A stretch of DNA of 64,000 nt from Geosiphon pyriformis (Eukaryota; Glomeromycota; Glomeromycetes; Archaeosporales; Geosiphonaceae): contig JAAOMT010000436.1 in assembly GCA_016748015.1 (NCBI GenBank), positions 878,033-942,032 of the forward strand, given 5' to 3'. The position numbers were made by a program, and so were the translations under genes. Shown piece by piece: positions 3,772-59,973 of the stretch; position 1 is the first letter of the stretch, and the number at the start of each line of letters is the position of its first letter. The notes beneath the pieces are model-generated. The model ran no database searches and was not told where the DNA came from. It saw only the letters and a list, made by a program, of their open reading frames with translations.

Positions 3772-5170
3772 TTGGAACAAATGAACATAAGAAATTTGGA
3801 TCTGCTCCAACATATGCAATTCAAGATGTTACTTAACAACTTCAATGACATCTTCACTAGTAAAAACAAATTCAGCAGAACTAACATCATTCAAGACTGG
3901 GGATGCTATGCCAATCAAACAACAAGCATACAGAGTACCACCAGCCAGCCATGAGATTATCTGTCAAGAAATCAACTGAATGCTTGACAATGCGCTAATT
4001 CAGTCATCTATGAACTCATGATTATCACCAGTGGTACTTGTCCAGAAGAAGAATGGAAAGATCAGATTTTGTGTAGACTACAGAAAACTCAATGGAGTCA
4101 CCTATGGAGACAGCTATCCAACTTCATAAATTCAGGAGCTATTCAATGCTTTTAGAGGAAATAAATGGTTCTCAACACTGAATCTAGACAGTGAATACTG
4201 ACAGGTAGTCATGGATCCAGCAGACAAAGAAAAAATGGCTTTTATGATGAAAGAAAGGAATTTCGAGTTTGAAGTCATGCCATTTGGCTTAATAAATGCT
4301 CCAGCCACATTTCAATGGCTAATGAAAATAGTATATACTGGCTTATTATGAAAATTAGTAGTCGTTTATTTAAATAACACCAATGTGTTTTCTAAAACAT
4401 TTGATAATCATTTGTATCATCTACAACAAGTGTTTGAAAAACTACGACGAGTAGAGCTAAAGTTGAATGCCAATAAGTGCTTCTTTGGCAAGACAGAATT
4501 AAACTTTTTAGGACACATAGTAAGCAAAAACGGCATCAAAACGGATCCAGAAAAAATAGAGATAGTCAAGAACTTTCCAGTACCAATCAATGTGACAGAG
4601 TTGAAGTTATTCTTGGGATTTGCAGGCTATTATCAACATTTTATCAAAAACTTTTCTAAGATAGCCCAACCACTCAATCATTTCCAAACCAAGAATGTAA
4701 AATACGAATGGACAAAAACACAACAAGAAGCTTTTGATATTCTAAGAAAAAAACTTATACAAACTCTGATACTAATTTATCCAGATTACAATAAACCATT
4801 TATCATTACCACCAATGCATCAGGCCAAGCATTGGGAGCAATACTATCACAGAGAGAACCAGATAGAAGAGAACATTCAGTTGCATATGCCAGCCGAAAT
4901 TTAATTCCAACTGAAAGAAATTATGAAACACCAGAATTAGAACATTTAGCAATTTATTGGGCAGTTATAAAATGGAAAAAATACTTGAGTCAAAAGTTTG
5001 AGGTGTATACAGATTACAAAAGATTGATATCATTCCAAAAACAAGAATTTGGAGATGGCAGACAATCCAGATAGAAAATGGCACTCTCGCCATATACTTA
5101 TATCATACATTATAAAAAGGGAAAAGACAACAGAAATGCAGATGGTTTGTTACAAATAAGACAAATCTAA
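3772..5170 (+). pseudogene. Reverse transcriptase and RNase H region of element A
   Basis: The RT palm is readable as [18 protein letters not shown], then WFSTLNLDSEY, MPFGLINAPATFQWLM and VVVYLNNTNVFS. The usual YLDD box is YLNN at 4367-4378 and the first catalytic Asp (motif A, usually LDL) reads LNL, so all three metal-binding Asp residues are lost. RNase H follows with TTNASGQALGAIL (Asp to Asn) and VYTDYKRL. Thumb and connection are intact in a 229-codon ORF from 4385 to 5074. Stops at 4018, 4199 and 4349 are TGA, the first two at clear Trp positions. Confidence 0.85.
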
Positions 5171-42672: not shown

Positions 42673-42939
42673 AACTTTTCTATAGAATCCTTAGTATTTT
42701 TTCGTGACTATTTATTTACTCCTTTATTTTTGGTTTGAATCTGATTTATACAGCTCACATTGTAACTTAAATTGTTAATTTGAAATTTTGGCTGTGTGGA
42801 TATTCGTAACAATATTTCAAATCCAAAATTTTTTTTAATAAACAGCATTTGTATATTTTGAATAAATCGTAATTATTATTTTTTATTATAAAATAAAAAT
42901 TATGTGAAAAATAAAATAAAAATAATTGTATTGTTTATA

Positions 42940-42974
42940 TGGGGCGTGCTGCAACAAAACCAGACAAAGTGAAC
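42940..42974 (+). repeat. Left terminal inverted repeat
   Basis: 35 bp, perfect inverted match to 48128-48162. Beyond position 42974 the two arms diverge at once (atgtgac against ttcgggt), so the repeat has a sharp inner edge. Confidence 0.97.
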
Positions 42975-43191
42975 ATGTGACATCACTCGAATTATTTTCG
43001 TTCTAATGATTCAAAATTCACCATATACATAGAATAATTAAAATAAGCAAACTGAAGGTATATAACCCAATGCTGCAGGAAAGTGAACATGTGATTTTAC
43101 GTTTCGCCCAATCAAAGATTTTGCGCCCAAACATTACTTCCATTTCTGGTGTATTTTTTTTTTTTTTTTTTTTCGCGTCATTTTATGTGAC

Positions 43192-46100
43192 ATGGCGGTG
43201 GACGAACGATACCCAGGCCACGAAGGTGAATATTTTATCTTTTATCCCATCCTACATGTACCCATGTGCGTTACTGACGCTTTGCCGCGCGATTCCCTCA
43301 GCGGTGATCGCGTATTTGCGCGACGTAGACAGCGGTGACTGCACCTACCCTCATTTTCTGGACAAGCTTCGGGACACCGTTCTCGAATCACCTCCATTCA
43401 CCGAAGACTGGAGTGGTCTCGACGGAATTTGGTACAAGCGGTACGCGCATCAGGCGCATTTAGCACAAAAGAAAGTAGGCTTTTTTTTTTTTGTTGAAGG
43501 CGGAGGAGGGTGCTTCTCGGCTGTTATCATTCACATGGAACGGTTCGAAAGGTTTTGCTGGAATTTCCAGTACCCGAGTGGCGAGAGAAAGGCCTCGTGG
43601 CTGTTATTATGTGGCGCATTTTCTTTATCGCTAACATAGAACGGCTTGCGGGGTTTATTGTTATCATTTCACATGGAATGGTGCCTTCCCCATTGCCATC
43701 TCCGCCGAGAATAAAGCGATGAGAGGATAGAGAGGGAGTTGGGTGCTGCCGAAACAACCACCTAAGCGGCATGGCTGCGGTCAAGCTAGTTACGAGGAAC
43801 TCCTCCGGTGGGCTCCCTCTCAAGTCTGCGTGAAGGCCAGAGGCTGCGGTCTCAGTGCCAAGAGCAACCCCAGTTCATTCGCAGCCCTCAATGACTCGCT
43901 TTTTTTGCTTCATTGCTTACATCTTTATTTTGATATTAAAATCCTTGTTCTCGACAGCCATCCGCCCATCCACCAATGAAATCATTTTTCGAAGGAATCA
44001 TTAGGGAGCGTAGAGAGCTTCAAAAGGAACCGGAGAAATATCCTGGTCATTCATGTAGGTCTCATCGATGATTAGTCTGTGTCCAAGTCAGGGATCAGTA
44101 TTTTGGTTAAATCAGGAAGGCAATTACTAAAAAAAAAAAAAAATCCATCCCTTTTAACATTCTAGCTTTTGAAAAGCAATTTGAAGGATGGGAGAATATT
44201 TTGGATCCAAATGATTTCAACCTCTGTTCAATACTGGAATTCCGCAAAAATAAGGATGACTTCTCCTTCGACAAGTCAACTGAGCACACTTTGATTTCCA
44301 AATTTGTTTCACACATTGCAACAATTACAACTAACACAATGTGGAAGAAGGCTGCTTCCTCTCTTAATGGTGATGGAGTGCTACAGTGTCAGGCCCAATA
44401 GGACGAAGTCAAATAATTTTGGCGGGATGTCGAGCTCGCAAAAACCGATGAGGAAATGCTTCTAATGGAGAAAAAGATAGCCCAAACCACGGTATATATA
44501 TGCATCAGTCTAGTATAAATACTAAGTTGCACATTGTGTTAACTTTAGTCACAATTTGCAGGTCAAGTTTGCTCTCGATCAATCTTTGGTGGAAAATGAA
44601 GCTCAAGCGGTCTTGAACAACTCCAAACTAGATTATCTGAAAAAGAAGGCTGGTGTAGGTATCACCGTTAAAGGATTCTTTGGCATTAAATGTGAACTTT
44701 TTTTTTTTATTTTTTTTTATTTTAAACCTTGAATGTCCAGATATTGCTTCAATCACAAGTAAAAAAACGGATGGTTTTGGACAATAATGAGGGTGACCAT
44801 GATGCAGAGTATGAATCTCTGTGCAGAAAACCAAAAGTGATTGCGGAAGAGAAGAGCAAGGGGCAAGATAAGGTAATGGTACGAATATGCTTGATACTGG
44901 ACAAGAACTCATGCAACTTTTTTAATGACTTACCCTCTACTTTTACGTTTAGTTGGGCACTAGCACAGCAAAGAATAAGCACACAGCGAATGATGATATT
45001 TTCGATGATTGTGAAGACCTTGCTAACAGTGAAGATGACAATGTGAGTGATAGTCTAGATGTCGATAAAGACTCGGAGGTCGAGAATAAGGACAATTTGG
45101 GGCCAAAAGCAACAGCTCAGCACATAAAGAGTTATCAGATTAATTTGAGATCGATGCTGGCAGATTACTGTAAAAAGAAAACCATTTCTTCATACAAGTA
45201 AGCCTTCATAGTAGAAGCTAATAATATCCCTCGAATGCTAGTGCTTACTCTGTATGTATGCATACCGTTCTCATCAGTCCGGCTCGTAGCTTTATTTTGG
45301 ACTTGTCCCCAAGCTCAAAAATCCGGAGCGAGTTCCCTCGGGAAAAGTGGAATGAGCTGGTAGCAAGCAAATGCATAACTCAATGGATTTATCATCACGA
45401 AATTGAGTCTATTATTGCTCACTTGTTTGGAGGGGCTAGTGAAAAGGTAAGTTGTGTTGGGTGAGTAAAACTCTAGCTTGAATATCTATTGACAACTGTT
45501 GGAAATATCTATCATTAGAGACCATTCAGGAATTTGTCAGAAGCTCGCTCAAAGTGGTATACTCTCCGCGATTTGCCCTCTTCTGAGTACACTAATGAGT
45601 TTTCATATGCAGAGGACGACTGGCGAAAGATTTGTCGTTGGATTGAGCGGGCGACTGGACAGTTGTATGTTACAGCCGTTCATTCTGAATTTTGTTATAA
45701 TGTGAGCTGAATGGCTACTGTTTTCACTTTTATAGTTTAGACGTATTTAAATCTTCTTGCAATCTGCTCCAAAACAATTGCCAAAAACGAGAATGGTTCG
45801 GCGATTACATTGTTCCACTTTTTCAGGGAGCCTTAAAATTGGACGGCAACTGCCGTGTCCCATGGTGAGTTGTAAAGTATTCATCCATGATCAGTGCATA
45901 CCATCGACCCAAGGCTAAAAAAAATCTCGATTTTACACATTTTCAATCGTCGTCAAGGTGAGAGGTTTCTGTTCTATCAACCCAACGTCGTCATAACTGA
46001 GAGAAGGATATCCTCACACAGCAAGTCGAACGGGGCCACATGGCCGATCTCCTATGTCTATACGAGCAGCATGAGATCGCCTGTGCTCTGGCATGCGGTG

Positions 46101-46325
46101 GTCCTGAAAAGTACGACATTACAAAGATGGCATCGGATGAGTTCTCCTTACCTAGAATGATAAAAGATATGATGGACGAATTGCAATCCAAGTTCCCATA
46201 CGCTGGGAATTATATATTTGGAATACAAGTGAGTTGCGATGTGTTATTTATGCATAATCTGACGTAGAATGATTAACACGCCGTTGATTTTGCTTCAGAC
46301 ATATATGACGGAGGTTCAAATCTAA
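43192..46325 (+). pseudogene. Decayed multi-exon fungal-type gene of unknown function inside the inverted-repeat unit
   Basis: Exon 1 (43192-43225, MAVDERYPGHE) and exon 2 (43302-43474, YLRDVDSGDCTYPHFLDKLR) join in frame and are strikingly GC-rich. Later exons read SFFEGIIRERRELQKEPEKY, FEGWENILDPNDFNLC, EFPREKWNELVASKCI, EDDWRKICRWIERATGQLY, REWFGDYIVPLFQGALKLDG and ADLLCLYEQHEIACALACGG, ending TYMTEVQI at 46323-46325. Two stops in one exon, TAG at 44399-44401 and TAA at 44414-44416, both stand where Gln would fit, so C-to-T decay is likely. The central exons hold an acidic region near 45000-45110. I do not recognise the family; it could be the transposase of the unit or a captured host gene. 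Confidence 0.6.
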
Positions 46326-46362
46326 TAATAGTGAAAACTACTCTTAAACTTATTCAAGAAGT

Positions 46363-47949
46363 TCAATTAAATTGTTTTTCGGCATTTATTTGAGCTTCTA
46401 ATCTAGCTAATTCTGCTCTTTTTTTTTGTAGTTGTTTTTCTTGCTCTTCAGTTCGATTAGTAATCCTTTCTAAATCTTTGATTTCTTTTCTGATTATTAA
46501 TTGGGAAGCCTCTCTTTCTCTCTTTTTTTCTGTCCCTGAGTTATTTTTCTTTCGTTCTCTAAGGGCTTCTTCCTTGTGTTTTAGATAATCTTTATCTTCT
46601 TTTCAGATAGCGTAATAAGTTTCCGGATCTCTTATTTTTTCTGCTATTCTTTCATTTTCCATTGTGCCATCAAATTGGTTGTTTTTAATTGGTCTATATT
46701 GTCTTCATTATTTTTGTAGTTTAAATTTTGGAACTAGATTAATAGTAAATTCTGATTCACTATAAACTTTATCATGATTGGGAACATTTTCTCCTCATTT
46801 TTCTTTTTCTCACATTCGTTCAGCCTTTTCTTCTAGTTGGCATCCTATGGTAAAATCATAGCATTCTAATTTGTCTTCAAATTTTGCCATTAACTCTTGT
46901 AAAATTTCGCCTATTTCGGATCAAATTTCAGAATCTATTGATTTGATGTCATTAGGAAGATGCTTTTTAGTAGAGATAGTGGTATATCCCAAGTGTTTAT
47001 CATTGTGTAAGCGAGCAATTATTTTGTCCCTCTCTGCAAAGATATTGTCAGCATTGGGTTGAAAGACTTCTTTGGATATTTCTATTTGTTCAGGTGTGGC
47101 TGGATGGTAACTACTACTTGATCCTACAGTGCCTCAGTTCTCTTTATATTTTGGAACTATTCACATGTAGAAGTGGGGTGAATTCTCACCACCTAGTTTT
47201 CCAACTGAAATACTAATTCGATAACCTGCTGGTTTATACACTTTATCTATTTTTTCAATTTGGTCTTTAAGCACTGGCAAAATATCATCTCATTCTTTTC
47301 TATTTACTTCTCGCAAGTTTTTAGCATGACGTTTGGTGCATAATGATACATGAGCTTTAGTATTTGGTCTTAAAATTGAACCAGAAAAAACACTCCCTCC
47401 AAAATCAGAAACTCAACACTTATACATGCCCTTTTTATGCACTTCTATGTTGTCACACATATGGCAAACTTTCTTATCTCCATCTTCACTCTTCTGGCAC
47501 TTATAATTTGGAGAGTTATCTAAATTTCAGGTGAAGTGCTGATCTTGTTGATTCTTTTCAATTTGCTTTTGACAATTACAGCACTGAAAACATTTATGGC
47601 CTCGACTGTCTTCATAAGTGGTGACATCTCAATCTAACATGATTCGACATTGGGGACAATTTGTAGTAACTCTATCTCATCTGCCATTACCATATTGCCT
47701 TATATTTCTATACCGAAAAGGTCAATCAAAACTCTCCCTTTTTTTACATTTTTCTAGGGCTTCACGGAAGAGCTTTATTTTATTTCTCTCTCAATCTTTA
47801 TTGGTGTTGTTATCTAAATCTTGTTGCAGGAGAGTTTCGGCACACCCTCAACAACAAAACTTAATAATCTCTCTTTCTTCTTGGTCTCATCAGTTGATAG
47901 TTAATCCTTCTTTATTTTGATTACAATTAAAACATTCTTTTTTAGTCAT
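46363..47949 (-). pseudogene. Zinc-finger/HIT-like protein gene using UGA as tryptophan (Mollicute-type code)
   Basis: From ATG at 47947-47949 the frame runs 413 codons with no TAA or TAG to 46708-46710, yet has 15 TGA and no TGG. Each TGA fits Trp: for example ERM-W-EKEK-W-GENV (46810-46812 and 46795-46797) and FYM-W-IVPKY (47161-47163). N-terminal Cys pairs (ECFNCNQ, CPQC, KCFQCCNCQ, VCHMC) suggest zinc ribbons. A HIT-like domain follows (KRHAKNLREV, GYRISISVGKLGGENSPHF), but of the His triad only the first remains (HFYMW). After the TAA, perhaps from CAA, a charged coiled-coil-like stretch with two more TGA runs to about 46363; read with UGA as Trp, the frame stays open to 46273. Unreadable by the fungal nuclear code. 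Origin from a Mollicute is inference. Confidence 0.8.
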
Positions 47950-48127
47950 AATATTTTTTTTACAAAAAAAAAAAAAAAAAGTGGCAAGAGATAATAATAA
48001 TAAAGAAAGAATTGTGGGTTATATTTTAGCTTGCTTGTTGTGATTATCGTGTATGATGGGTATTGAATAATTGAAAGGTTGTGGGAAGGGGTGAGCGAAA
48101 GAAAAATCTTTAAGCCTAGCACCCGAA

Positions 48128-48162
48128 GTTCACTTTGTCTGGTTTTGTTGCAGCACGCCCCA
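48128..48162 (-). repeat. Right terminal inverted repeat
   Basis: 35 bp, perfect inverted match to 42940-42974. It ends CGCCCCA and is followed by TATTATATT. Confidence 0.97.
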
Positions 48163-48410
48163 TATTATATTATATTGTTTAAATCAAATTATCTTTACTT
48201 TTTTATTTTTTAATCAAAGATTCAATTATGTAATAATTATATACTAATTGTTAAAATGTATATTGAATTATTGCATTATTGTTTTTACAATTTTTAAATT
48301 AACATAAATATGTTAAAATTTTAATTTATAAATATCTAAATATGTATATTTATTACTTTAAAAACAAACAAAAAAATTTTGTTATTTAAATAATAATTTA
48401 TTTTAAATAA
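48163..48410. other. AT-rich spacer between the inverted-repeat unit and LINE 3
   Basis: About 250 bp of AT-rich sequence. I see no gene in it. Confidence 0.6.
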
Positions 48411-55545: not shown

Positions 55546-56240
55546 CAGAACCACAGAAACAACCACCCTATATTCTACTCAAATGCAAAGATTGCAACAA
55601 AAAACTTTCATCAATGAGAGCATGTATTTCTCCAGAAGAAGAATATGAAACTCATATCTGTTACTTTTGCAAAGCATGCCATAGAGAACGATTTGGATCT
55701 CCAAAAAGAAGTGGAAAATGGGACAACACACCTTGTCTTACATGTGGAGAAATGCTACCAGAAGAATGCAATTGGATTGATGTAGCAATGAAAGGAGGAG
55801 TATGTAATCAAACCTGTCAATATGCTCTATCAATTTCGGAAAAAGTCAGAAGAGAAACACCATTTGATGCAGCATACAACAGTGCTCTCAATAAACTTTA
55901 CCACTACCCTCATGATGCTGGAATGATTTTTGACTTAGCAATGGCATTGATCAATGGAGCCACCCAAGAAGATGTCCACCAAATGAAAGAAGCTGAATTT
56001 ATTAAGTATACCATGGAATTAACTGAATTCGATTATGAAGATGAAGTAGAAATCTACCACCAAATTACAAGCCACACATATTCGACCAAAGAAGCTCAAA
56101 TTCAATGATTAGAGCAAATAAACATTCAATTGTGTGAAGAATGTGTTATGTCTTGTGATAACCAATGGTGTTTAGAATGTTATGCTCTTATCATTCTTCT
56201 GCCAGATGAGAATGATGAAAATAAAATCAAATTTGGAGTA
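55546..56240 (+). pseudogene. Cys-rich domain of element B between protease and dUTPase
   Basis: An almost clean frame with Cys pairs LLKCKDCNKKL, ICYFCKACHRERFG, PCLTCGEML, VCNQTCQYAL and, after one TGA at 56106-56108, LCEECVMSCDNQWCLECYAL. Between them is a helical, acidic stretch of about 100 residues (AAYNSALNKLYHYPHDAG). The pattern matches element A. Not a known retroelement domain to me. A zinc-binding role in the Pol polyprotein is inferred. Confidence 0.7.
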
Positions 56241-56299
56241 TCTGAACTAGTAGAAGAACTACCAACCACTCCCATCTATCTTCTTGAAAAGCAACTACC

Positions 56300-56735
56300 T
56301 CTACAACTTAAATATTTTGACAACCATGGCCAAAGAATCAAACCAGAAAAAGCACACGAAATTGATGCTGGATATGACCTAAGATACCCAGGAAAAGATA
56401 CTTTGATTCTCCAACCAAAGTCTTTAACAAAAATCAATCTCAAAATTGCTCTTGAAATTTCACCAGGAGCAATGGTTCAAATTGCCTCCAGATCATCATT
56501 GGCAAGCAAAGGAATCAATATTAGAGGAGGAGTTATAGATGCAGGATACACTGGAGACATTACCATTATGTTACAGAATGAGACAGACAAACCATTCAAA
56601 ATTAAACATGCTGAAAAAATTGCTCAAGCAATTTACTTACCCTTAATCAACATTTCGGGTTTACAATCAGTAAACAACAGAAAACAATTGGGAAAAAGTG
56701 AAAGAGAAACTCAAGGTTTTGGTTTAACTGGATGA
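56300..56735 (+). CDS. dUTPase domain of element B
   Basis: All five trimeric dUTPase motifs are present: AGYDLRYPG, ASRSSLASKGI, GGVIDAGYTGDITIML, HAEKIAQAI and RETQGFGLTG. The length of about 140 residues fits the family. It sits in an uninterrupted frame (56130-56735) that ends in TGA, where element A has Arg, so CGA-to-TGA decay is likely. The enzyme hydrolyses dUTP to dUMP and would keep uracil out of element cDNA. It would have been part of Gag-Pol, not a separate protein. Confidence 0.9.
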
Positions 56736-57179: not shown

Positions 57180-58580
57180 CCCTTAGAACCTTAACAACAA
57201 AGACAATTGAAACAATTGATAGCTGAATTTGCAGATATATTTGCAAAAGACAACAATGACTTGGGAAAAACAGACATTGTTCAACATCAGATCCATACAG
57301 GAGATGCTCTACCAAAACGTTAACAAGCTTATCAAATGCCACCTGCCAGCCACCAATTCATCAGAGAAGAGGTCCAAAAAATGCTCAATAACGGATTGAT
57401 TCAACCATCAAGAAGTTTTTGGGCCTCATTAGTAGTTTTAGTTAAAAAGAAAAATGGAAAAATCAGATTCTGTGTTGATTATAGACAACTGAATAGTGTT
57501 ATAATTAGAGATGCCTACCCTCTTCCAAGAATTGATGACATGCTAGATGCTCTAGGAAAAGCCAAGTTCTTTTCAAGTTTAGATCTGAAAAGTGGATACT
57601 GGCAAGTCGAAATGGATCCAAAAGATAGACCCAAAACAGCATTCACCACTCAAGAAGAAAATTATGAGTTTAATGTTATGCCTTTTGGACTCTGCAATGC
57701 ACCAGCAACATTTCAGCGACTCATGGATGTTGTCTATGAAGGGCTCTTGTGGCAATCAGTAGTTGTTTATCTTAATAATACTGATGTATACTCACCAAGC
57801 TTTGAAGCCCATCTCATTCACCTACGAGAAGTTTTTCAATAATTATAGAAAGCAGGATTAAAGTTAAATATTGAGAAATGTTACTTTGGAAAAACAAGCT
57901 TGATTTTTCTTGGACACATAGTTAGTAAAGATAGAATCAAACCAAATCCAGAAACAATCAGTGCTGTCAAAAACTTTCAAACTCCCAGAAATACTACAGA
58001 ACTAAGAAGATTTGTGGGATTAGTCTCTTACTATCAAAAATTCATAAAAGAATTCTCAGAAATTGCCAAACCATTCAATTATCTTACCAACAAAAACATA
58101 CCATACAAATGAACTGAAGAACAACAAAAAGCTTTTGAAATTCTCAAAACAAAATTGACAATAACCCCAGTTCTTGCTTACTCAGACTTGAACAAATGAT
58201 TCCAATTAGCCACTAATGTCTCACACATAGCATTTGGTGCCATCTTATTACAATTGAATGAAAATGGCCAAGAACAAGTTATTGCCTATGCCAGCAGAAC
58301 ACTCAAGCCAATAGAACTCAAATATGGCTCAACTGAATTAGAAGCTGCTGTAATTATTTGGGCTCTTAAACATTTTCAACAATATCTGAAGAATGGAAAA
58401 GAATTTGACATAATAACGAACAACATTGGCCTCAAATGACTCAATAAAAAGAAAACTGAACAAAGTGCCAAACAGTCTCAATGGAATGACTTCCTAGCAG
58501 ACTACAGATATATTGTACACCACAAACCAGAAAAACTACATACCAATGTTGATAGCCTCTCAAGAATGAGACAAGATTAA
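57180..58580 (+). pseudogene. Reverse transcriptase and RNase H of element B
   Basis: RT core in one open frame (57336-57842): [37 protein letters not shown] with the first Asp intact, MPFGLCNAPATFQRLM and VVVYLNNTDVYS, in which the YLDD Asp pair is Asn-Asn (57768-57779). Stops at 57841, 57847, 58110, 58198 and 58438 break connection and RNase H. RNase H has TNVS for TDAS (Asn at 58215-58217) and TNN for TDH (Asn at 58419-58421). RT and RNase H are therefore both catalytically dead. Confidence 0.88.
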
Positions 58581-58638
58581 TACCAACAACAATTCTACCA
58601 CAACTTACCAACTTACCAACAAAAATAACCAAACAAGA

Positions 58639-59973
58639 ATGGATCCCAGAAACTACAGCAATCTTAAAAATTATTTGGAGACTCTTACCATGTCAGAAAA
58701 CTGGTTTCTAAGTAAAAAACACCACTTACAACACCAATCAAAACAATATTTCATACACCAAAACAAAATCTATTATAAAAATTACAGAAAACCAAACCAG
58801 CCACTCAGATTAGTACAAGAGAATGAAAAAGAAACAATTTTATACAACATGCACACAGATCCGTTTTCAGCACACTTGGGAAAAGAAAAAACAATTCAAA
58901 GAACTCTTGAACATTATTTTTGGCCTCACATGCAAAAAGACATTCAACAATATGTAGAATCTTGTGATAATTGTCAAAGAAAAGGAGAAACTTGTCCCAC
59001 AGAATCTTTAAATCCAATCAAAGTTGGACAACCTTTTGAGAGAGTTGGAATTAATTTAGTTGGACTATTACCTATCACAACCCAAGGAAATTGTTATATT
59101 GCAGTTGCAGTGGATTATCTTACTAAATGGCTTGAAGCTAGAGCCATCCAAAGAGCAGATACAAAATCAGTAGCAAATTTCATCTATGAAGACATTATCT
59201 GTAGACATGGATGCCCAATTGAACTTTTATCTGATCAAGGAACACATTTTGTGAACAACTTGATACAAGAAATTTGTGAACGGTTCAATGTCAAAAGACC
59301 TCTATCATCACCTTATCACTCTCAAACAAATGGACTTGTAGAACGTTTCAATAGAACATTGTGTGAATCTTTAGCCAAAGTCTCAACAAACTTTGAGCAG
59401 GAATGGGATATCTTTATTCCATCAGTGTTACTAGCATACAGAACACTAAAACAAGATACTACGAAACACACACCATTTGATCTTACTTATAAAAGAACAG
59501 CAATATTACCAATTAATTTCACAGTGGAAACATACCCAGTGCAACCAATCAATGAAGAAAACTTTCAAGAGACACTCCAAAGAAGAGCCTACACTCTTTT
59601 TAGTACATTGGAAGGAAAAAGAAGAATAGCAGCAACTCATATTGAACATTCCCAAGCTCAACAAAAAGAAAGACATGACAACAAATTACCACTTATTACC
59701 AACAAATTTAAAGTTGGAAATAAAGTTCTCTTACACAGAACTAAGGCTGAAAAACAATGGAGTGGGAAATTTGAAAACAAATGGGATGGATCATTTTATA
59801 TTCATGAAATTCTAGGCAATGAATCATATAAGTTAAGACTTGATGACAAAATATTAGCAAAAGTTGCACATAGAGACAGACTGAAACACTATCATTCCAG
59901 AAACAATCCTGAACCATTAATTCCACAAATTGGTATACATTCCCCTTTAATTAATCCTGAAGATATTCCCTGA
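58639..59973 (+). CDS. Integrase of element B, 444-codon open frame
   Basis: HHCC head (MHTDPFSAHLGKEKT and ESCDNCQRKG), catalytic core with GINLVGLLPI, LLSDQGTHFVN and GLVERFNRTL, and a C-terminal region with KVLLHRTKAEKQW and KWDGSFYIHEIL. The first catalytic Asp is Asn (59053-59055) while element A keeps Asp, and the second Asp and the Glu are intact. The longest open frame of the element, yet probably inactive. No chromodomain was recognised at the C-terminus. It would be released from Pol by the protease. Confidence 0.88.
   Translation: MDPRNYSNLKNYLETLTMSENWFLSKKHHLQHQSKQYFIHQNKIYYKNYRKPNQPLRLVQENEKETILYNMHTDPFSAHLGKEKTIQRTLEHYFWPHMQKDIQQYVESCDNCQRKGETCPTESLNPIKVGQPFERVGINLVGLLPITTQGNCYIAVAVDYLTKWLEARAIQRADTKSVANFIYEDIICRHGCPIELLSDQGTHFVNNLIQEICERFNVKRPLSSPYHSQTNGLVERFNRTLCESLAKVSTNFEQEWDIFIPSVLLAYRTLKQDTTKHTPFDLTYKRTAILPINFTVETYPVQPINEENFQETLQRRAYTLFSTLEGKRRIAATHIEHSQAQQKERHDNKLPLITNKFKVGNKVLLHRTKAEKQWSGKFENKWDGSFYIHEILGNESYKLRLDDKILAKVAHRDRLKHYHSRNNPEPLIPQIGIHSPLINPEDIP

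Follow-up and report, generated by a model that had tools for sequence, protein, structure and literature searches.

A family of TIR transposons carrying TGA-coded genes in the nuclear DNA of Geosiphon pyriformis

We describe a dispersed family of DNA transposons with terminal inverted repeats (TIRs) in the genome of the fungus Geosiphon pyriformis, linked to genes in which TGA stands where Trp is expected. Within the family TGA and TGG are exchanged as synonymous codons, purifying selection is detected under translation table 4, several types of cargo occur, and copies range from open to decayed. Mollicutes-related endobacteria (MRE), relatives of the Mollicutes that live inside such fungi, read UGA as Trp. 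We consider it probable, at roughly 0.75, that the family evolves in a genome using this code, most likely that of an MRE, that it reaches the nucleus repeatedly by transposition, and that its copies decay there. We infer both the MRE home and repeated arrival, instead of copying within the nucleus, from these patterns; they suggest an element that evolved in a bacterium and carries genes between both partners.

A TGA-coded gene inside a TIR unit

The window, meaning the whole stretch of DNA that was analysed, comprises 64,000 nt of contig JAAOMT010000436.1 (assembly GCA_016748015.1), and positions below are window positions. Labels beginning with C denote contigs of the organism's own assembly (124.7 Mb in 406 contigs, 2.34 Mb of it in the window's contig), and those beginning with L denote individual loci. 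The features of the unit are as follows.

42937..48165, no strand: TIR element with 4-bp target duplication, a 5.2-kb unit bounded by a perfect 38-nt inverted repeat
42937..42940, no strand: ATAT, left copy of the putative target duplication, outer part of the 38-nt repeat
42941..42974, plus strand: left TIR, 34 nt, starting GGGGCGTGCTGC
42975..46300, plus strand: fungal-type DNA between the TIRs, GC 0.418, with intron-like stretches by eye; the rest of the genome matches it over short lengths only
46324..46662, minus strand: second TGA-coded ORF, coiled-coil type; its lower end is the end of homology to the C320 copy
46708..47949, minus strand: HIT-like gene, 413 codons plus TAA, with 15 TGA read as Trp
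47959..48127, minus strand: subterminal stretch from the TIR to the HIT-like gene, with a counterpart at the left end of the C294 element
48128..48161, minus strand: right TIR, 34 nt
48162..48165, no strand: ATAT, right copy of the putative target duplication, outer part of the 38-nt repeat

An initial annotation had described a minus-strand frame from 47949 with 413 codons, 15 TGA and no TGG, TAA or TAG. We confirmed this frame, which opens with ATG, has its coding part at 46711-47949 and ends with TAA at 46708-46710. The span then given to it, 46363..47949, holds for the gene at 46708..47949, but the remainder (46363-46707) belongs to the separate second ORF. That ORF lies in the same frame, starts with an ATG at about 46662, contains three TGA after the ATG and no TGG, and is kept beside the HIT-like gene in several copies.

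None of 100 windows simulated with an order-1 Markov model had a frame free of TAA and TAG as long as 413 codons; the longest ran to 294. The window itself holds further long TAA/TAG-free frames, two of which (453 and 412 codons) have 9 and 10 TGA, so the length of the HIT-like frame is not unusual by itself and the weight falls on homology. The simulated windows and the homology together rule out a chance ORF. Five ORFs called in the window with table 11 contain 17 TGG and no TGA, an outcome fixed by the construction of such ORFs. Standard-code ORFs at 4352-5074, 56109-56735 and 58570-59973 carry reverse transcriptase/RNase H, dUTPase and integrase domains.

Translated with table 4, the HIT-like protein scores 33.2 bits against the Pfam HIT domain (PF01230; cut-off 21.5), placing it in the HIT protein family, and has a PDB relative in 6iq1 (E 4e-4). 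Unlike that relative, it lacks the H-x-H-x-H catalytic triad, with HFYMW aligned opposite HVHFH of 6iq1, and its N-terminal half is longer, cysteine-rich. PHROGs gave weak matches only (the HIT-like gene to phrog_19494, E 9e-6, function unknown), a plasmid collection yielded two distant HIT proteins, and scans of viral contigs yielded no relative. On the evidence of its sequence and relatives, the view that the HIT-like gene was written for UGA=Trp and evolved under that code is supported. Because the standard code halts at the first TGA, the gene would be untranslatable as a whole in the nucleus, as had been proposed.

TGA and TGG at the Trp sites of dispersed relatives

The initial annotation had advised looking for copies of the ORF elsewhere in the fungal assembly, and relatives do occur there: a search with the table-4 HIT protein gave 24 matches, spread over the contig of the window and 15 further ones. 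We extracted about 10 kb around each of 16 other HIT loci, together with one locus, found at the DNA level, that has the second ORF alone. At the window's Trp sites, as defined by the query sequence, the 16 loci read TGA 34, TGG 11, TAA 3, TAG 1 and other codons 37 times (n=86), and at non-Trp codons they contain 15 TGA, 22 TAA and 4 TAG (n=2883); TGA is strongly concentrated at Trp sites (Fisher p 4e-44). The initial annotation had named TGG at these sites in relatives as evidence against its reading. Such TGG codons are present (11/86), but they stand beside 34 TGA within the same family.

If TGG codons had decayed by G-to-A change, TAG would be expected as often as TGA. When the Trp sites of the HIT-like gene and of the transposase-like gene described below were pooled (the 16 HIT loci and 15 transposase loci, six of the latter among the top seven transposases), we counted 63 TGA, 1 TAG and 7 TAA, which rejects this decay. 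Under table 4, the dN/dS of the window's HIT gene against its relatives is 0.13-0.37, finite in 10 of 13 pairs and mostly measured near saturation; the comparison with L030 gives 0.21 at a dS of 1.17. The mixture of TGG and TGA, together with these ratios, fits TGA and TGG as synonymous codons.

The TIR family

A 21-nt core of the TIR, allowing at most 3 mismatches, occurs at 118 sites in the assembly, against none for a reversed-pattern control. The TIRs of the window and C309 elements are perfect, and the subterminal stretch of the window unit is 69% identical to the left end of the C294 element over 220 bp, TIR included. Twelve TIR pairs were hand-chosen from the window and 100 of the 118 core sites, and among these the 4-bp target duplication is exact in nine and has one mismatch in three. 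Since ATAT is palindromic and preferred, it is weak evidence alone; the informative duplications are ATTT in C294 and AAAT in C280, whose units each enclose a TGA-coded transposase-like gene. A TIR-like site lies within about 4 kb of eight of the 17 HIT loci (window, C355, C362, C266, C404, C242, C138 and C325), with none found in the stretches read around the other nine.

By its position and its relatives, the window gene is cargo in a dispersed TIR DNA transposon family, and a lone transferred gene is ruled out. Of the earlier reading as a transferred endobacterial gene, what stands is a UGA=Trp gene in fungal nuclear DNA; what changes is that it travels with a dispersed family and is not a single gene.

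MRE sequence has been reported in Glomeromycotina assemblies (PMC10507103), which would favor endobacterial contamination, or a chimera made in assembly, as the source of such DNA. Against either stand the relatives on 15 further contigs and the length of the window's own contig, the target duplications, and copies in every state of decay; the only SSU rRNA reported from the assembly is eukaryotic (5 of 277 candidates scored). MRE assemblies measure 0.31-0.97 Mb with a GC of 29-33% (PMC11423566), and the contigs of the window, C355 (2.09 Mb) and C373 (1.19 Mb) all exceed that size. Those of C309 (0.57 Mb), C294 (0.70 Mb) and C150 (0.22 Mb) do not exceed MRE genomes in size, and little of their flanking DNA was read. 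We consider a chimeric contig improbable and give chimerism or contamination as an explanation almost no credence.

A transposase-like gene in the UGA=Trp code, under selection

Many copies lie beside a gene whose product matches Pfam DUF7869 above the cut-off (E 7e-17 in the C309 and 2e-16 in the C294 element). Its matches to ISAzo13-type (DDE-type) transposases are far below the cut-offs (E 0.06-0.09), and it has no relative in the PDB. DUF7869 is mostly eukaryotic; we found none in 14 control genomes and none in the plasmid collection, and no paper on DUF7869 in the literature searched. The protein may be a transposase of eukaryotic ancestry.

Searching the assembly with this protein returned 89 matches, with 76 of 216 candidates scored. 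Within that scope, all nine matches covering at least 480 residues have in-frame TGA; no long transposase free of TGA was found, and the stop-free matches are short pieces. We compared the best seven of the 89 (L046, L047 and L078-L082), whose frames are open over 488-612 table-4 codons. Alignment with the query over its full length holds for L047 and L078 alone, the other five being shifted or ending near a terminus. The query has six Trp columns, one of them not conserved; at the five conserved columns TGA occurs in 7, 4, 1, 6 and 4 of the seven copies and TGG in the rest, for 22 TGA among 35 codons. All seven have TGA at the first column, so a ribosome using the standard code would terminate near codon 78. 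The dN/dS of these genes is 0.047-0.188 in 9 of 21 pairs, and dS is saturated in the other 12. Exchange of TGA and TGG at conserved Trp, combined with low dN/dS, indicates that selection acted where UGA means Trp; TGA and TGG are synonymous where the transposase-like protein is selected. The gene retains TGG at part of its Trp codons and has a GC of 0.39, above the 0.28-0.34 of the cargo, as expected of a standard-code ancestor part-way through recoding. The protein probably descends from such an ancestor that entered a UGA=Trp genome.

These data bear on whether the copies could have been made in the nucleus, with a few old insertions of MRE DNA multiplied there by a transposase from elsewhere; the TGA-coded genes would then be passengers and the copy number a product of nuclear copying. 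In its favor, long stretches are common to L028, L032, L033 and L044 (73-85% identity), and the HIT genes of the first three are near neutral in pairwise comparison (dN/dS 0.70-0.82), as expected of decaying copies. Short TIR pairs of about 0.4-0.7 kb, too small to hold the genes, point the same way. However, the seven top transposases differ from one another by a dS of 0.19 to saturation with low dN/dS, which places most of that divergence before arrival, in a UGA=Trp genome where selection acted, and the search above turned up no long TGA-free transposase that could drive the copying. We therefore regard multiplication in the nucleus as unlikely.

The short pairs (C81:37692-38112, C122:114627-115092, C370:2169520-2170058, C174:78343-78892 and C298:371867-372555) resemble non-coding deletion derivatives.

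Evolution in a UGA=Trp genome followed by repeated arrival leaves one comparison unexplained in its simple form. Between L028 and L032, the transposase gives a dS of 0.66 and dN/dS of 0.23, and the HIT gene a dS of 0.24 and dN/dS of 0.70. The two genes of this element seem to have different histories, perhaps through exchange between elements.

Because purifying selection continues beyond the first TGA, it could also be supposed that the fungus itself translates the element, through recoding of UGA or read-through. This would have to operate on 3 to 6 UGA in one frame and in copies that freely exchange TGA for TGG. Moreover, TGA accounts for all 19 Trp codons of the two window ORFs, and two of the five table-11 host ORFs examined in the window end in TGA. 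Translation in the fungus thus appears extremely improbable.

Several transposase pieces lie inside frames of 1036 to 4215 aa and could be masked stretches or fusions (C346:525755-526057, C346:1351592, C346:618154, C258:351142 and C370:2106337). Two relics, C335:18700-19680 and C403:18973-19953, have an equal match range and nearly equal stops, perhaps as a duplicated region or haplotig.

Other cargo

Four elements (C294, C309, C355 and C150) carry TGA-coded cargo other than the HIT-like gene. On C355, two unbroken ORFs lie between an open transposase and a TIR, one of 312 aa with 5 TGA and no TGG and one of 223 aa with 3 TGA and 1 TGG; relatives of both, partly broken, occur in C294 and C309. 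C150 carries a different ORF, 326 aa long and containing 3 TGA and 6 TGG, that has no Pfam match, a weak match to phrog_420 in PHROGs (E 9e-5, function unknown), and, to the eye alone, a phosphatase-like appearance. In the transposase tree, the inner support of which is partly low, the HIT gene is found in three groups; it runs opposite to the transposase in L028, L032 and L033 but in the same direction in L029 and L031. Its distribution over groups and orientations indicates that cargo is exchanged or lost.

Two further shared segments were seen. L031:7291-9899 and L034:6236-8824 have 2.6 kb in common at 74.5% identity, outside the TIR unit. The other, some 180-290 bp in length and including a 91-aa ORF, lies at L028:5944-6219 on the minus strand and has similar counterparts in L029, L030, L031, L032, L034, L040 and L047; it matches Viral_Rep weakly (E 0.011, below the cut-off), and its position relative to other genes varies by element.

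The home genome

Many fungal mitochondria read UGA as Trp, and the window by itself does not separate their code from that of MRE. The home could then be the fungal mitochondrion or a mitochondrial plasmid, possibly also one with UGA as Trp. Mitochondrial plasmids carry DNA and RNA polymerase genes, and a cargo of HIT-like, coiled-coil and zinc-ribbon-like genes, together with TIRs flanked by 4-bp duplications, is unlike the genes of such plasmids. We consider a mitochondrial home highly improbable.

For an MRE home, the GC of the cargo resembles that of MRE assemblies (PMC11423566). Scanning a genome collection gave no relative with patterns that spell Trp as TGG, which is a weak test, and no Mollicutes with a 16S primer. 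Gene transfer from host to MRE is described in PMC10507103. In the opposite direction, Diversispora epigaea reportedly received genes of a methylation defence system from MRE, a finding of Sun 2019 that PMC8227670 cites. None of the bacterial donors identified for Rhizophagus irregularis was a known MRE (PMC5982333), and this counts against an MRE home. A Moeniiplasma-type donor appears likely.

A proposed route between endosymbiont and nucleus

We propose the following course of events. A standard-code ancestor of the transposase-like protein would have entered an endobacterial genome in which UGA means Trp, most likely an MRE genome, where the family's proteins would evolve under selection. 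From there, elements would enter the fungal nucleus many times by transposition, as their TIRs and 4-bp target duplications suggest, each bringing the endobacterial gene that it held: the HIT-like gene in the window, and a coiled-coil, zinc-ribbon-like or other protein elsewhere. With UGA a stop in the nucleus, translation would end at the first UGA and the copies would fall silent and decay.

Naito 2015 and Torres-Cortes 2015 reportedly described genes passing between MRE and arbuscular mycorrhizal fungi. Together with Sun 2019, these accounts concern the same presumed partners and put transfer in both directions into print, so that MRE-to-fungus transfer is already known. Unlike the single-gene transfers described there, the vehicle here is a TIR transposon family, in the endosymbiont's code, with a probably recoded and strongly selected transposase-like gene. 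No report of a transposon in the UGA=Trp code in a fungal nucleus was found in the literature searched. Pack-MULE type transposons likewise form TIR-bounded units with a short target duplication, enclosed host-type DNA and short non-coding relatives; the present family differs in its 4-bp duplication, DUF7869 protein and TGA-coded genes. NUMT-like insertions of organelle or endosymbiont DNA also consist of foreign-code DNA decaying in the nucleus, but whereas NUMTs have random break points, the present units end at TIRs with target duplications.

If the proposal is right, integration by transposition is a concrete mechanism of gene exchange between endosymbiont and host, the genetic code is a built-in tag showing where each copy evolved, and the origin of fungal genes in MRE becomes testable. 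Through TGA at Trp sites, nuclear relics could serve as a record of endobacterial lineages, perhaps even in fungi that are now without them. Annotation with the standard code would miss such genes or label them pseudogenes.

Enclosed fungal-type DNA

Fungal-type DNA, with a GC of 0.38-0.42, is also present in the units of the window, C294, C309 and C280. That the element includes a fixed fungal gene is rejected, because the fungal-type halves of the window, L046 and L047 are mutually non-homologous. This DNA was either captured by elements in the nucleus or carried along on their rounds, and the presence of unrelated fungal-type DNA between the TIRs counts against the reading that we prefer.

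It also invites a wider and more tentative reading, to which we give somewhat less than even odds. A eukaryote-type DNA transposon would have colonised the endosymbiont, been rewritten into its code, and would now cycle between bacterial and fungal genomes by transposition, carrying bacterial genes to the nucleus and, in the units that enclose fungal-type DNA, fungal genes towards the bacterium. A transposon would then be one vehicle by which MRE acquired their host-derived genes.

Relatives of the fungal-type half of L047 lie close to a TIR at C346, and close to both a TIR and a transposase relic at C132. The C280 unit contains a kinase-like ORF whose match to PF00069 (E 1e-6, 28.7 bits) is below the cut-off of 31.7. 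In L085 (C280:6570-10206), the fungal-type half of this TIR unit, the kinase-like ORF is paired with a coiled-coil ORF, a combination reminiscent of crinkler-type genes.
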